From Anoxybacillus amylolyticus (GTDB lineage: Bacteria; Bacillota; Bacilli; Bacillales; Anoxybacillaceae), in NCBI RefSeq assembly GCF_001634285.1, contig NZ_CP015438.1:2492001-2556000 (forward strand): a DNA stretch of 64,000 nucleotides, written 5' to 3'. Position numbers and translations under genes: made by a program. The notes below the pieces were generated by a model that was not told the origin of the DNA, searched no databases, and was given only the letters and a program-made list of their open reading frames with translations. This document shows positions 4,811 through 15,564 of this stretch, piece after piece. Each line of letters starts with the position of its first letter. The stretch's first letter is position 1.

Positions 4811-5419
4811 TTACAGACCGCACTTTAACTGGGCACCGCAGCTTGTGCATGTGTTGCAGCCGCCGATTTCTTCGACTGTTCCTTCGCGGCATACTGGACA
4901 AATGTTGCCGACTTCCGAGCCGATCGTAACGTCGGTTGCGCGTAAATCTGGAATCGTTTCAACGAGTGCAACAGCCCGTTTTTTCGGTTCTTCTGGAATT
5001 AATTCAAGCTGCTCTTCGACTGCATTTTCTTCCGCTTTTAATGTCAATACTTGCGCATCGCGGCTACCATCGACGTATACGGTGCCCCCTTTTGCGCCGC
5101 CGCGCCATAACCGCTCGTACACTTTTTGCACTTGCTCGACCGTATAGCCGCGCGGTGCATTCACCGTTTTGGAGAGGCTGGAGTCGACCCAGCGCTGGAT
5201 GATGCATTGCACATCGGCATGCGCTTCTGGCGATAAATCCATCGCCGTCACAAACCAATGCGGTAAGTTGTTCGGATCTGCTTCTGGATGGTTGTCCAAA
5301 TATTCTTGGACGATATCCGCCTTTACCTCAATAAACTTGCCGAGACGGCCGCTTCGATAATAAGAGAAAGAAAAATATGGTTCAAGTCCTGTGGACACGC
5401 CGATCATGGTTCCGGTACT
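4811..5419 (-). CDS. nrdJ: class II ribonucleotide reductase, exon 3 (C-terminal 202 residues)
   Basis: Third exon of the split nrdJ. Its first codons read STGTMIGVSTGLEPYFSF, which continues the PTG at the end of exon 2 to restore the universal PTGS(T) loop of ribonucleotide reductases. The C-terminal end carries CPVC and CNTCTSC pairs, matching the cysteine-rich swinging tail of NrdJ enzymes that re-reduces the active-site disulfide. Reading starts at AGT 5419 only after splicing. A GTG three bases upstream is part of the intron end and is not a real start. Confidence 0.93.
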   Translation of the reverse strand, partial: STGTMIGVSTGLEPYFSFSYYRSGRLGKFIEVKADIVQEYLDNHPEADPNNLPHWFVTAMDLSPEAHADVQCIIQRWVDSSLSKTVNAPRGYTVEQVQKVYERLWRGGAKGGTVYVDGSRDAQVLTLKAEENAVEEQLELIPEEPKKRAVALVETIPDLRATDVTIGSEVGNICPVCREGTVEEIGGCNTCTSCGAQLKCGL

Positions 5420-6598
5420 CACTTATGTTACTTCTATCCATACCATATTGGACAGAAGGCAGGTACGATATTGCTACCTGCTCCATATGTCGCCACATGG
5501 GTCAGACTATATCTTCAACCAAATCTCCTGTGAATGTCTTTTGCGATGACAAGGATACTCACATAAGGTAATTAAATTAGATAATTCATTCGCCTTTTCC
5601 CAATCACCATTGAAAGCCCTAAATGGTATAATGTGATGAACTGATAATTCACGTTCATATTCAGCTTCTGTTATTCCACAATCTTGACAAGTAAAATTAT
5701 CACGTTCCCTAGCCTTCCTGCGCTGAGCTCTCCAGTTTGGCCCATAATATTCTATATCTCCTCCTGCCCAAGCACCATTGTTTTCTCCAGAGAACATCCT
5801 AGTTCTTTCATAATAATCACCCATGCAATGCACAGAACAGAAATTAAGGTTTCTAGCAACAGAAGGTTTTTTCTCGATTTTTTTGCCACAATTATTACAT
5901 GTGACAATAATTCGCTTTTTATATTGAGCTTTTCCTCTTTCCCCGTTCGCTTTGCCCAAACATGTCTTCGAACAATATTTCGCACTGAACTCTCGATTTT
6001 TTGGGACATCAAACGTTTTCCCACAAATTTTACAAATTTTTTCGACACGTTTTCTCAAATGCTGATTAATTTGATGGGCATTTTTTATTAGATACATTCT
6101 TCTACATTGTTTGTTGCAAAAGTTATTTTTTTGAATAATAGAAGGCTTTCGCAACATTTCCTTTCCACAAAATGAGCAAAAAACTCTCACTTTTTTACTC
6201 ATCTTTTTCCAAAATAATGGAGGATTCTTTTTTTGGTACTCTGTTTTGCAAGATCGGGAACAAAATTTTTTTCTTTCAAAGTGACTAGGTTTTACATAAA
6301 TTTCTTCATCGCAATTAAGACATTTTTTCTTCACAGGAACACCTCTCCTTTTCTGTCCTAATATAATTATTATAAAACAGAACTGATGTTCCTGTTAAGA
6401 ATTTTGGTTGCTCGGCGTATAGTCGTTGAGGGGTCAGCCACGACTTCCCTGCGGATTGTCTGGTAGGATTCATCCAACACTCTTGCATTTTTACCTCTTT
6501 ATGTGCTGGCAAGGCACAGGTAGCAAGAGATACGCCAGATTTCCCCGCATATAGCCGAGTTTTCACTGTATTTTTACAAATACAGGGGGCAAATACTT
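5420..6598 (-). mobile_element. group I intron 2 of nrdJ (HNH-bearing, 1179 nt)
   Basis: The exon ends in U (6599) and the intron ends in G (5420), the group I rule. Core stems read on the minus strand are as follows. P1: exon GGGU pairs with GCCC (6590-6587), with the splice-site U-G pair. P2: CTGTATTT/AAATACAG (6585-6566) closes a GUAA loop. P3: CTCGGC (6559-6554)/GCCGAG (6416-6411). P4: TGCGG (6549-6545)/CCGCA (6454-6450). P7: GACTATA (6424-6418)/TATAGTC (5511-5505). P10: GUAUU near the 5' end pairs with exon AGUAC. The AACGACTATA and AAGATATAGTC boxes are typical R and S elements, probably subgroup IA. An endonuclease ORF occupies the P8 region between the P7 strands. Unspliced, the frame stops 11 codons into the intron. 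Confidence 0.93.
5507..6334 (-). CDS. intron-encoded HNH homing endonuclease with four zinc-finger repeats
   Basis: 275 residues inside intron 2. Four tandem modules of 30-45 residues each show a CxxC followed about 20 residues later by FCSxxC or YCSxxC (near residues 5-30, 51-75, 95-121 and 145-169). These are probable zinc-binding, DNA-contacting repeats. The C terminus is an HNH nuclease: CQDC near 217, then LSVHHIIPF, NLITLC and CHRKRH. It starts at a GTG with AAGGAGAGGTG upstream. The stop codon TAG lies inside the P7 3' strand of the intron. Base composition is more A/T-rich than the flanking exons, a sign of separate origin. It presumably cleaves intronless nrdJ at the PTG/S site (inference). 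Confidence 0.9.
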   Translation of the reverse strand: MKKKCLNCDEEIYVKPSHFERKKFCSRSCKTEYQKKNPPLFWKKMSKKVRVFCSFCGKEMLRKPSIIQKNNFCNKQCRRMYLIKNAHQINQHLRKRVEKICKICGKTFDVPKNREFSAKYCSKTCLGKANGERGKAQYKKRIIVTCNNCGKKIEKKPSVARNLNFCSVHCMGDYYERTRMFSGENNGAWAGGDIEYYGPNWRAQRRKARERDNFTCQDCGITEAEYERELSVHHIIPFRAFNGDWEKANELSNLITLCEYPCHRKRHSQEIWLKI

Positions 6599-7765
6599 AC
6601 CCGTCGGAGCCACGGTCAGCAAATGCGAGTTACGAATACCGTATGTTAAAATATCTTGACGAATATCGTCCGGCATTTTTTTCATATAGCCGGTGTGAAT
6701 AAACGCTTCGCGCAATTTCATCGTTTCTTCTTCCGTTTCGCCAACTAAAAACGGAAAGCTTCCTTTCTCTTTTGCGAGCTCAATCGACGCGCGGTACGCC
6801 GTTGTCGCGATTGTTTTAAACAGCTCGTCCACTAACTGATTGCCTTCTTCCGAACCGTACTCTTTTTCGCAATAAATAAGCAAATCGGCTAATCCCATCA
6901 CGCCAAGTCCGACGCGACGTTCCCCGAGCGCTTGTTTTTTATTTTCTTCAAGGAAGTACGGTGTTGCGTCAATAACGTTATCTTGCATACGGACGCCAAC
7001 TTCAACCGTCCGTTTTAATTTTTCATAATCGACGACTTTCTTTTCTTTATCGACCATATTTGCCAAATTAATCGCGGCTAAATTGCACACAGAATAAGGT
7101 GCGAGTGGTTGTTCACCACACGGATTTGTTGCGACAACTTTTTGCCCGTACGCTCTTGCGTTCGTCATGTCGTTGGCGTTGTCGATAAAGAAAATGCCTG
7201 GTTCTGCTGAATACGTTGCGCAAATGTTAATAAGCTTCCATAGTTCGCGCGCGCGAATTTTCCGGTAGACGCGAACGCGATAGCCCATGTTCTCCCATTC
7301 GCGCACATCGCCGACTTCATGCCATTTTTCGTTGTAGATGCGCATTTCTTCTTCCGAATATGTTTCAACATCCGGGAAGCGCAATTCGTATTCTTCGTCG
7401 TTTTCCACTGCCTGCATAAACTCTTTCGTTAAGCAAACGGAAATGTTCGCCCCTGTTAAAAAGTCTGGATTGTGCACGCTATATGTGCCGCCTGTCCGCA
7501 ACTTTTCTTCCGCATCTTTAATAATTTTTTCGCTAAAACCGCCGTATCCTGGGATGTTTTTATAGTTGACAATTCCTTGATACATGGCACGCTCTTGTTC
7601 GGTAAGCGGCGTAAACTTTAATTTTTCTTTCGCTGCTTTTTGAATGCCTTCATCTTCTGTATTTTCAAGCAAATAGCGCAAAATGCGCGGATTTTGCATT
7701 TTCGAAATAATGAATTCAATAATGTCCGGATGCCAATCGGCTAGCATAATCATTTGAGCGCCACG
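6599..7765 (-). CDS. nrdJ: class II ribonucleotide reductase, exon 2 (389 residues, catalytic core)
   Basis: Middle exon. It begins RGAQMIMLADWHPDI, joining the GGSR at the end of exon 1, and ends LLTVAPTG. It holds the radical chemistry residues: NPCGE (thiyl-radical Cys and Glu, residues 478 and 480 of the spliced protein) and the partner cysteine in YSVCNLAAINLA (489). The enzyme reduces ribonucleotides to deoxyribonucleotides using adenosylcobalamin, without oxygen dependence. Reading upstream (MSNKL) and downstream (KYLPPVF...) of these limits belongs to introns 1 and 2. Confidence 0.94.
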
Positions 7766-8963
7766 CAATTTGTTACTCACTCATTTGAGTGGGCTAGGTC
7801 ATTTCTGCCTAGCTCTCCGTCTTTCGAACAGAGATCAGACTATATCATCAAAGAAGAGAATGTTACATATTTTCAATTCAATTTTATATCTCCATGTTGA
7901 TAAAGGTGATGGAACAATTTGTTGACATCTTTAATACTGGATATATAAAGATCAAAGCATCCTTCTTTTTCAGTTAATGAATGGACATTTTGCCCAATAC
8001 CTTTAGACTTCAAAAATTTTAAGATTCCTTCTAACAATTGCTTCGATCCAGTAATACCAAATCGTGTTTTTAAGTAAGTTTTATCCCTCTCTTGGTAATA
8101 TCTCTTATATACTCTTATATTTCCATCAGCATCAAATACTCCACGCAAGAAGCTCCATTGCAATTCATCGCTATTAAACTCTATCCAAGTTTCATTCCCT
8201 GTTTTTTTGGGAGTTATTCCTAACCTCATTAAATCATTACACATTTTTGTAGAATTAATGGTTAATGAATATTTGTTTTGCTCATTAGGTGCATTTCTTT
8301 TTCTAAACTTGATCGCCTCTTGCATGTTTAATTCTTTTGCTATATCGTAAATCAATTGTTTATCTTCTTCTGCTAAAGTTAAGACAAGACGCTTTGATTT
8401 TTTACGATCAAAAATTGTCCCATCACCTAAGATATAGCCAACTAAATATGCTTGATTTGGAGTTTTTATATCAGAGAAATAATTTTCACAATAATTATAT
8501 TTTTTGTTGGCTAATTTACCTGCTTCCCCGGGATTTCTGATTTCAAACATTTTCATTTCTTCATTCCATCTTCTTAAAGTTCCTCTACTTACACCTAATA
8601 TTTTGGCTATTTTAACTTGGCTATATCCTTCTTTATGGAGATCTTTTGCTTTTTTCAACATCTCTTCTTTGTCTCGCGCCTCGTAACCTCGTCGCCGAGT
8701 GTTACGATTTACTCCTTCCATGGTTTCCACACTCCAAACATTTTTATTTATTACATTCATTGTATGGAGAACTGTAGGAAGTTTCAATAGTCGTTGAACC
8801 TTCATCTCCGTTTCCAGAGATGCTTGGCTGCTGGTTGCCCATTCTCTATCCAACTTGTTTTTAAACCGTCACGCTTGCCGTCACCAGCTACGTTGTGGTC
8901 AAGTTGGCTTTAGGGGGTTCCAGCAATTCGCGAGATTTTACTCCCGCCAATGGCACTACTTTA
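7766..8963 (-). mobile_element. group I intron 1 of nrdJ (LAGLIDADG-bearing, 1198 nt)
   Basis: The exon ends in U (8964) and the intron ends in G (7766). P1 is strong: exon CUCCCGU (8970-8964) pairs with GCGGGAG (8947-8941), seven pairs including the splice-site U-G. P4: TGCTGG (8925-8920)/CCAGCA (8834-8829). P7: GACTAT (8792-8787)/ATAGTC (7843-7838), embedded in GTTCAACGACTA and GATATAGTCTGA, the classical R and S boxes. P10: intron GCCAU pairs with exon GUGGC. The core resembles subgroup IA introns of Gram-positive phages and bacterial genes. The endonuclease ORF lies between the P7 strands, i.e. in the P8 region. The intron begins with TAA in frame, so unspliced mRNA gives a protein truncated after 262 residues. 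Confidence 0.94.
7873..8721 (-). CDS. intron-encoded LAGLIDADG homing endonuclease
   Basis: 282 residues if started at the ATG at 8721, which has GGAG 10 nt upstream; an ATG at 8760 is an alternative, and the frame is open further up through the intron core. A helix-turn-helix of the resolvase/NUMOD kind (YSQVKIAKILGVSRGTLRRW) occupies about residues 35-55. Two LAGLIDADG motifs follow: LVGYILGDG (about 92-100) and FLRGVFDADG (about 190-199), with the acidic catalytic Asp present in both. A single chain with two motifs would act as a monomer. It probably cleaves the intronless nrdJ GGSR/RGAQ site (inference). Confidence 0.9.
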   Translation of the reverse strand: MEGVNRNTRRRGYEARDKEEMLKKAKDLHKEGYSQVKIAKILGVSRGTLRRWNEEMKMFEIRNPGEAGKLANKKYNYCENYFSDIKTPNQAYLVGYILGDGTIFDRKKSKRLVLTLAEEDKQLIYDIAKELNMQEAIKFRKRNAPNEQNKYSLTINSTKMCNDLMRLGITPKKTGNETWIEFNSDELQWSFLRGVFDADGNIRVYKRYYQERDKTYLKTRFGITGSKQLLEGILKFLKSKGIGQNVHSLTEKEGCFDLYISSIKDVNKLFHHLYQHGDIKLN

Positions 8964-9749
8964 ACGGGAGCCACCTTGTTCCACAAGATGGGTTAGTTTT
9001 GCAATGTCGTCAAGCCATGACACCGAACCGGACGATTTGCCGTTGACTCCGCGCGCGAGCGTATTGCGTGGGCGAAGGGTAGAACCGTTCGTTCCTACAC
9101 CGCCACCGCGGCTCATAATTTCCATCACTTGTTTACGATGTTCAGAAATGCCTTCGCGCGAGTCTTTGACAAACGGCATGACATAGCAGTTAAAATACGT
9201 CACTTCTGTTCCAGAACCAGCACCGTACAACACGCGCCCAGCTGGAACAAAATTAAGGTTGACGAGCTGTTCGTAAAATTTTTCAAACCATTCTTGCCGC
9301 TTTTCTTCTGTTTTTTCAACAGCGGCTAACCCGGTTGCGTTCCGCTTCGCAATTTGCTCATAAAAAATTTCTAGCGGCTTTTCAATGACATCGAGCGAGC
9401 GAACAACAATGCCTGTTTTCGCCTCCTCTCCGTCTAACACGTGCCGGTACTCCTCTTCCACTAGCACATGCGCTTTTTTGTTTTCCAAATCAAGCTTGAC
9501 AATAAACCCAAGCCCGCGCGCCGGAAACTTCGGATCTTCCTTTACGGTTAAAACGACAAAATCTCCAACGCTTAACGTTAATTTTTCCGTATCTTTAAAC
9601 GAGTAGCGGTCAAGCATCACTAAACGCGACACGCCTTTATGCGTAATGTGCATGTCCTCCGTAATCGGATGCACTTGCGGAAACAAGCGAATGTCTGCAT
9701 TTAGTTTAGCAATATCCAATTTCATTCGTTCAGAAGACGCAACCGTCAT
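8964..9749 (-). CDS. nrdJ: adenosylcobalamin-dependent class II ribonucleotide reductase, exon 1 (262 residues)
   Basis: First exon. Joining 9749-8964, 7765-6599 and 5419-4811 gives an uninterrupted 853-residue NrdJ, a normal length for the Bacillaceae B12-dependent enzyme. This exon contains the N-terminal beta domain and the first disulfide cysteine C188 (TYFNCYVMP). It also contains MSRGGGVGTNGSTLRPR and the conserved GSVSWLDDIAKLTHLVEQGG that leads to the intron 1 site at R262/R263. The start ATG follows GAGGAGAG. The gene supplies deoxynucleotides for DNA synthesis. Two NrdR boxes lie about 100 bp upstream. No other RNR gene lies in the window. Confidence 0.95.
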
Positions 9750-9833: not shown

Positions 9834-9882
9834 AAACAATATATAGTATGATATTTTTATCGACACATACTATATATTGTGT
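9834..9882 (-). promoter_or_regulatory. paired NrdR boxes upstream of nrdJ
   Basis: Two 16-bp near-palindromes, AAACAATATATAGTAT (9834-9849) and ATACTATATATTGTGT (9867-9882), match the NrdR consensus acaCwAtATaTwGtgt at 14 and 15 of 16 positions. Their starts are 33 bp apart, about three helical turns, the usual arrangement for the ATP/dATP-sensing repressor NrdR. They sit 85-133 bp before the nrdJ start. The rest of the 290-bp gap (9750-10039) holds the lipM terminator and nothing else recognisable. Confidence 0.85.
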
Positions 9883-15398: not shown

Positions 15399-15552
15399 TT
15401 TCACCTGAAAGTTTCCCTATAATAGGTTTCCTCGTGGGTGGTTCACGTTCGTGAACACTCTCCAGAGCTGCGTCAAACAAGAGTTCTTTTGCCTGAGAGA
15501 TTCGTGTTGCCACTTGCTCCTTCGGCGCTACATTTCGTAGTCTCTCCCCTTG
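15357..15552 (-). promoter_or_regulatory. tandem glycine riboswitch
   Basis: Two glycine aptamers in series on the minus strand. Aptamer 1 runs from GGGGAGAG (15549) through CCGAAGGAGCAAG to CTCTCAGGCAAAAGAACTC. Aptamer 2 runs from CTCTGGAGAG through CACGAGGAAACC to CTTTCAGGTGAAAGGACAG (end 15391). All conserved glycine-aptamer boxes are present. It binds glycine cooperatively and raises expression of the gcv operon when glycine is abundant. It fills most of the 466-bp gap between gcvT and yqhH. Confidence 0.95.
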
Positions 15553-15564
15553 TTCTCATCCGCC

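Follow-up and report, generated by a model that had tools for sequence, protein, structure and literature searches.

The window analyzed here, a stretch of 64,000 nucleotides (nt) of the Anoxybacillus amylolyticus chromosome (NZ_CP015438.1, positions 2,492,001 to 2,556,000), carries on its minus strand nrdJ, the gene for the class II, vitamin B12-dependent ribonucleotide reductase (RNR). The gene is split into three exons by two inserts, introns A and C, each of which contains an open reading frame (ORF) for an endonuclease (Table 1). Joining the exons gives a 2562-nt coding sequence (CDS) of 853 codons and a stop, with no internal stops. The spliced protein matched the model for vitamin B12-dependent RNR, NF005991, from residue 1 to 853 with 1765 bits, against a cut-off of 854, and TIGR02504 with 615 bits, and this equivalog match together with the NPCGE catalytic motif identifies it as a class II enzyme, NrdJ. 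Intronless orthologues are collinear over both junctions, and the junctions are identical to those of relatives such as G011, which shares 97% identity over residues 1-853. The initial annotation, which had removed 8963-7766 and 6598-5420 to rebuild an 853-residue B12-dependent RNR, was thus right to the base, as judged by the frame, NF005991 and the intronless relatives, and the exon-U/intron-terminal-G rule that it had noted is kept at both splice sites. For comparison we used 41 genomes, one per species, of the family Anoxybacillaceae, taken by its named members as Anoxybacillus, Geobacillus and relatives. All 37 extracted nrdJ genes of the family splice to clean frames of 853-857 amino acids (aa), and the finding of 38 introns in the 41 genomes, each at one of only three sites, excludes chance and confirms the split-gene structure.

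Table 1. Features of the split nrdJ locus, in window coordinates.
Feature	Position	Strand	Description
nrdJ exon 1	8964..9749	-	codons 1-262; ends GGC TCC CGT
Group I intron A	7766..8963	-	1198 nt; between R262 and R263 (GGSR/RGAQM)
nrdJ exon 2	6599..7765	-	codons 263-651; includes unoccupied site B (NPCG/EQPL, after codon 479)
Group I intron C	5420..6598	-	1179 nt; between G651 and S652 (APTG/STGT)
nrdJ exon 3	4811..5419	-	codons 652-853 and stop; C-terminal Cys motifs
Internal guide sequence GCGGGAG, intron A	8941..8947	-	pairs with exon CUCCCGU (8964-8970); U.G at splice site
P3 3' strand (CGCGAGA), intron A	8672..8678	-	within the start of the endonuclease ORF; partner UCUCGCG at 8929-8935
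P7 3' strand (UAGUC), intron A	7838..7842	-	partner GACUA at 8788-8792
LAGLIDADG homing endonuclease ORF, intron A	7873..8721	-	N-terminal helix-turn-helix (from ATG); overlaps P3 3' strand, fills P8 loop
HNH homing endonuclease ORF, intron C	5507..6334	-	275 aa; Cys-rich zinc-finger-like repeats; in P8 loop; TAG stop inside P7 3' strand
NrdR-box-like palindrome upstream of nrdJ	9834..9849		2 mismatches
NrdR-box-like palindrome upstream of nrdJ	9867..9882		1 mismatch

Both inserts contain the core of a group I ribozyme. The Rfam group I covariance model RF00028 detected intron A at E = 1.8e-8 and intron C at E = 1.7e-9, both below the 50-bit gathering score, and a search of the window at the gathering threshold returned no match. 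The low scores arise because the endonuclease ORFs interrupt the cores in the P8 loop. The ORF-less copies in a sister genome of the same genus (G002) reached 88.1 bits for intron C and 74.1 bits for intron A, the latter being a natural ORF-deleted copy with 99.3% identity to the window intron A over 441 nt, and the intronless relative L033, serving as control, gave no hit. We fitted a structure of ten helices, P3 and P7 among them, to 13 site-A introns without an ORF, taken from the family and from two other Bacillaceae; 98.1% of the cells are paired in it. In this structure, 26 pairs changed on both sides compared with a shuffle mean of 12.7, and none of 500 shuffles scored as high; sliding the partners lowered the pairing to about 40%. 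The site-A P1 helix of seven base pairs (bp) is fully paired in 23 of 24 introns, and, again in 23 of 24, the internal guide sequence (IGS) has G, A or U opposite a C, U or A, respectively, at the wobble position of the glycine codon. The two group I introns proposed by the initial annotation were thereby borne out by RF00028, by covarying helices and by an IGS covarying with the exon wobble bases. The P1, P4, P7 and P10 pairings that it had read can be seen in both introns, as can P3, with a short P1 in intron C. At site C, the automatic choice of IGS and P1 was an implausible pairing and was replaced by a reading by hand. A separate observation concerns intron A of G001 (L029 3452-3832, minus strand), in which both inner P7 pairs are replaced (GACGA/GAGUC), possibly indicating a decaying ribozyme.

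The exon U and the terminal intron G are kept in all 38 family introns. The first intron codon is an in-frame stop in all 24 site-A introns (TAA in the window intron A), as is the second codon in all 15 introns of site B, the third insertion site. In-frame stops close to the 5' splice site are known from bacterial protein-gene introns and are read as barring ribosomes from the ribozyme (PMC3984707, a 2014 review). Sequence similarity among the introns of sites A, B and C did not exceed the level of shuffled sequences, giving no sign that they derive from one another.

The two introns encode unrelated endonuclease classes, as the initial annotation had stated. The ORF of intron A matched PF14528 (3.2e-9) and PF00961 (1.7e-5), both over the cut-off, bears two LAGLIDADG motifs in one chain (LVGYILGDG and FLRGVFDADG), and has I-AniI and I-DmoI as its relatives in the PDB. 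The ORF of intron C matched PF01844 over its full length (1-47 of 47, E = 5.4e-10) and has the catalytic His/Asn and the zinc-binding cysteines of HNH enzymes. Between intact copies, dN/dS amounts to 0.11-0.20 for the LAGLIDADG and 0.10-0.11 for the HNH family, which indicates that both endonucleases are under purifying selection. We also surveyed 299 genomes of the order for relatives of the two proteins. Every full-length LAGLIDADG relative with at least 59% identity sits at nrdJ site A, with hits at 31-34% lying elsewhere, and every full-length HNH relative with at least 60% identity sits at site C, further HNH hits following at 38-42%. Both families are thus associated with one insertion site each, as is characteristic of homing endonucleases.

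In relatives, site B either lacks an ORF or contains one of two kinds, an unclassified ORF of 311 aa or a remnant resembling GIY-YIG. The site-B intron, about 256 nt without an ORF, follows the U/G rule and has P1 and P10; the examples from L034, L064 and L030 gave no RF00028 match up to E = 10, and we regard the element only as a group I-like intron, not as a classed member of group I. The 311-aa ORF had no significant Pfam or PDB hit, and a 'YKPDF...EIKS' motif, recognized by eye only, suggests a PD-(D/E)XK enzyme. In G034 and G039, site B (L077 2277-3203 and L082 1600-2211) holds GIY-YIG-like endonuclease remnants with stops (GSIYLIRDVINGKCYVGQT), and thus a different endonuclease class at a site that elsewhere holds another ORF.

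When aligned to the Thermotoga NrdJ structure (1xje), site A falls after R207, site B between G323 and E324, adjoining the radical cysteine C322, and site C between G492 and S493. The insertion sites lie in active-site loops, which we take to be the specificity loop (A), the catalytic loop (B) and the substrate phosphate loop (C). The placement of the introns in highly conserved stretches of a chromosomal class II RNR (GGSR/RGAQ and PTG/STG), pointed out in the initial annotation, is supported. Group I introns are known to prefer conserved sites (PMC2814812).

All 41 family genomes contain nrdJ, and the gene is interrupted in 27 of them, always at one or more of three exact positions: after codon 262 (site A) in 18 genomes, after codon 479 (B) in 15 and after codon 651 (C) in five. 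Nine genomes have two or three nrdJ introns, with three in G003, and many intron copies in the family are without an intact endonuclease. Across 199 sampled members of the order, split nrdJ matches were counted by hand in about 62 of 177 nrdJ genes, about a third. We examined 20 of these split genes, all of which have in-frame stops (5-36), and 15 of which have U/G junctions at a named site. Site-A introns also occur in other Bacillales, where a fourth site lies two codons on (GGSRRG/AQM), and there are perhaps additional insertion sites beyond the fourth. In L247 and L249, nrdJ is split near codon 272, perhaps a fifth site, and nrdJ of Terrihalobacillus insolitus has an insertion of 2.9 kb (L154 1267-4147) after roughly codon 188, where no family member is interrupted. 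The arrangement had been called unusual, which holds for the literature searched but not for the sequences, as the family and order counts show.

The presence of the introns is mosaic. On a tree of exon DNA built with the site regions removed, the minimum number of state changes is 13 for site A, seven for site B and five for site C, amounting to at least 25 gains or losses overall. The introns are also more alike than the genes that hold them: intron versus whole-CDS identity between the window and its relatives is 99.3 versus 94.5% for G002, 96.2 versus 90.1% for G009 (A. flavithermus) and 95.8 versus 90.9% for G012 (A. mongoliensis). Moreover, the 18 site-A carriers all have CGT as codon 262, whereas the 19 non-carriers examined all have CGC or CGG (Fisher 5.7e-11). 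In a phylogeny-aware test, all 12 independent pairs link intron A to a codon 262 ending in T (p = 0.0005); sites B and C have too few pairs for this test. The U is required for the P1 wobble, and its arrival with the intron by co-conversion would explain why it is missing from the empty genes; the T footprint at codon 262 is as would be expected if the flanking exon were co-converted during homing. At site C, GGT/AGT is found in five of five carriers and GGA/TCN in most empty genes; G034 and G039 have the site-C exon variant without the intron, possibly a scar of loss. The nrdJ genes of this family have apparently been invaded repeatedly at the same few spots by introns moving between species.

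As a whole, these observations are best explained by nrdJ of A. amylolyticus holding two functional, mobile group I introns, which we consider very probable from the sequence evidence. In the transcript, each intron would fold into a ribozyme, with P1 on the upstream exon, a P3/P7 core and P10 with the downstream exon, and would excise itself to leave an uninterrupted mRNA for NrdJ. Ribosomes translating exon 1 would stop at TAA, the first codon of the intron, and would thereby stay clear of the ribozyme until it has spliced. The LAGLIDADG enzyme at site A and the HNH enzyme at site C would act on nrdJ alleles without introns, cutting or nicking them at the same active-site codons, and the intron with flanking exon would be copied into these alleles during repair, presumably between species through transfer of chromosomal DNA.

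Several points weigh against this explanation. The C-terminus of the LAGLIDADG protein in the window is truncated, being about 12 aa shorter than in G009. The P1 helix of intron C, as read by hand, is short and weak (4 bp, GGGU/GCCC), and the intron is without the early stop of its sisters (TAT for TAG), the next stop being codon 12. The intron identities are set against whole-CDS identity rather than a dated species tree, and ordinary recombination converting nrdJ would give a similar excess of intron over exon identity. Searches of phages, viral contigs and plasmids for a donor vector returned only distant endonucleases. Splicing itself, including self-splicing with exogenous guanosine, is predicted from sequence.

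The introns could instead be ancient, passed on vertically and lost many times independently, with no homing between species. The occupation of the same sites across many Bacillales genera, the many copies without an intact endonuclease and the possible loss scar in G034 and G039 would fit such a history. However, the introns are more alike than the exons even between genera, none of the 19 site-A-empty genes has the CGT that would remain as a scar after precise loss, and the purifying selection on the endonucleases needs recurrent use, so that we regard purely vertical descent as unlikely.

Another explanation is that the introns were recruited as regulators, with splicing efficiency, for instance with temperature, tuning the supply of NrdJ. 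Temperature-dependent splicing of a flagellin intron in thermophilic bacilli provides a precedent (cited in PMC3984707 and PMC4853749), but intron presence differs among very close relatives, and control is already available from NrdR-like boxes, which makes recruitment for regulation a doubtful proposition. The palindromes upstream of nrdJ (Table 1) resemble the NrdR-box consensus; similar palindromes precede the class I nrdA of the same genome (L001 485-500 and 516-531).

The same genome contains intact, uninterrupted class I nrdA and nrdB genes (C1:1147982-1150492). PF02867 located the large subunit of class I at C1:1147982-1149514, with nrdB downstream, and equivalog matches support the assignment. 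This contradicts the earlier statement that no second RNR was in view, and the suggested dependence of the dNTP supply on two splicing events does not follow for A. amylolyticus, since nrdAB could provide for it. NrdD was found in none of the 41 family genomes, and NrdJ may be the only oxygen-independent RNR here. With nrdAB as the second RNR, spliced NrdJ is probably needed mainly under low oxygen. The intact nrdAB would also permit nrdJ to be a dying pseudogene, broken by endonuclease insertions and tolerated. Yet its exons share 99-100% protein identity with G006 at 94.5% DNA identity, pointing to persistent purifying selection, the ribozyme helices covary, and 27 of 27 interrupted genes splice to full frames. 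Furthermore, the interrupted nrdJ is the sole RNR detected in G003 (introns A, B and C), G004 (A and B) and G030 (B): no NrdB, other class I or II large subunit or NrdD was detected in these drafts, which are 99-100% complete but in which an assembly gap could still account for the absence of nrdAB. That the family does include species with nrdJ only is shown by G019, which is assembled in two contigs. A decaying nrdJ is therefore highly improbable. There is next to no probability that the inserts act at the protein level, as inteins or otherwise, even though inteins are common in RNR genes (ca 80 curated, PMC2795772), as the RF00028 cores and the in-frame stops refute it. The stops are met at codon 1 in intron A and at codon 12 in intron C, and the 20 loci of the order that were examined have 5-36 each.

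Apart from nrdJ, the window contains a glycine riboswitch aptamer at 15471-15559 on the minus strand (RF00504, 70.5 bits), presumably upstream of gcv genes.

Endonuclease-bearing group I introns in RNR genes are already known, including two in one phage gene. The nrdE gene of Staphylococcus phage Twort has two group I introns, one with an HNH endonuclease (Landthaler 2002, cited in PMC3984707 and PMC3653736), but it is a class Ib phage gene, whereas nrdJ here is a class II gene on a bacterial chromosome, and its introns encode one LAGLIDADG and one HNH enzyme. Group I introns in nrdE, nrdF and recA of the Bacillus cereus group likewise interrupt chromosomal DNA-metabolism genes of Bacillales and bear homing endonucleases (PMC3984707). 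They differ in host gene and RNR class and are described as similar to phage introns, whereas our searches turned up no close source in phages. The flagellin intron of Geobacillus stearothermophilus and thermophilic Bacillus (Hayakawa & Ishizuka, cited in PMC3984707) comes from the same bacterial group and also sits in a chromosomal protein gene of a thermophile, albeit a different gene, and its splicing was shown experimentally. Cyanobacterial RNR introns (cited in PMC3984707) and the nrdA intron of Salinibacter (PMC3019208) are group I introns of chromosomal RNR genes, but those genes belong to class I. The curated RNRdb set includes over 100 group I introns (PMC2795772) and may already hold Bacillales nrdJ introns, which the accessible text of that paper does not name. 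In the literature searched, we found no description of introns in class II nrdJ, of their number of sites or of their spread, although RNRdb may list some.

On a wider scale, we think it somewhat probable that nrdJ of the Bacillales has long been an arena of intron homing, in which unrelated endonuclease families enter codons of active-site loops and spread via chromosomal DNA from one species or genus to another, and in which all DNA synthesis of relatives such as G003, with three introns and no other RNR detected, depends on three splicing events. The families in question would be LAGLIDADG and HNH and, in relatives, the GIY-YIG remnant and the unclassified PD-(D/E)XK-like protein. According to the 2014 review, bacterial group I introns lie mostly in rRNA and tRNA genes and in few protein genes (flagellin, recA, nrdE), and evidence that they move horizontally from one bacterial species to another is scarce (PMC3984707). 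The nrdJ family bears directly on this statement as a dense natural record of intron movement, comprising alleles that, at one and the same nucleotide in close relatives, are occupied, endonuclease-less, decaying or empty, together with a footprint in a synonymous codon that resembles co-conversion. The family also offers candidate species whose sole detected RNR is split by up to three introns, in which the cost and regulation of self-splicing in an essential bacterial gene could be tested.
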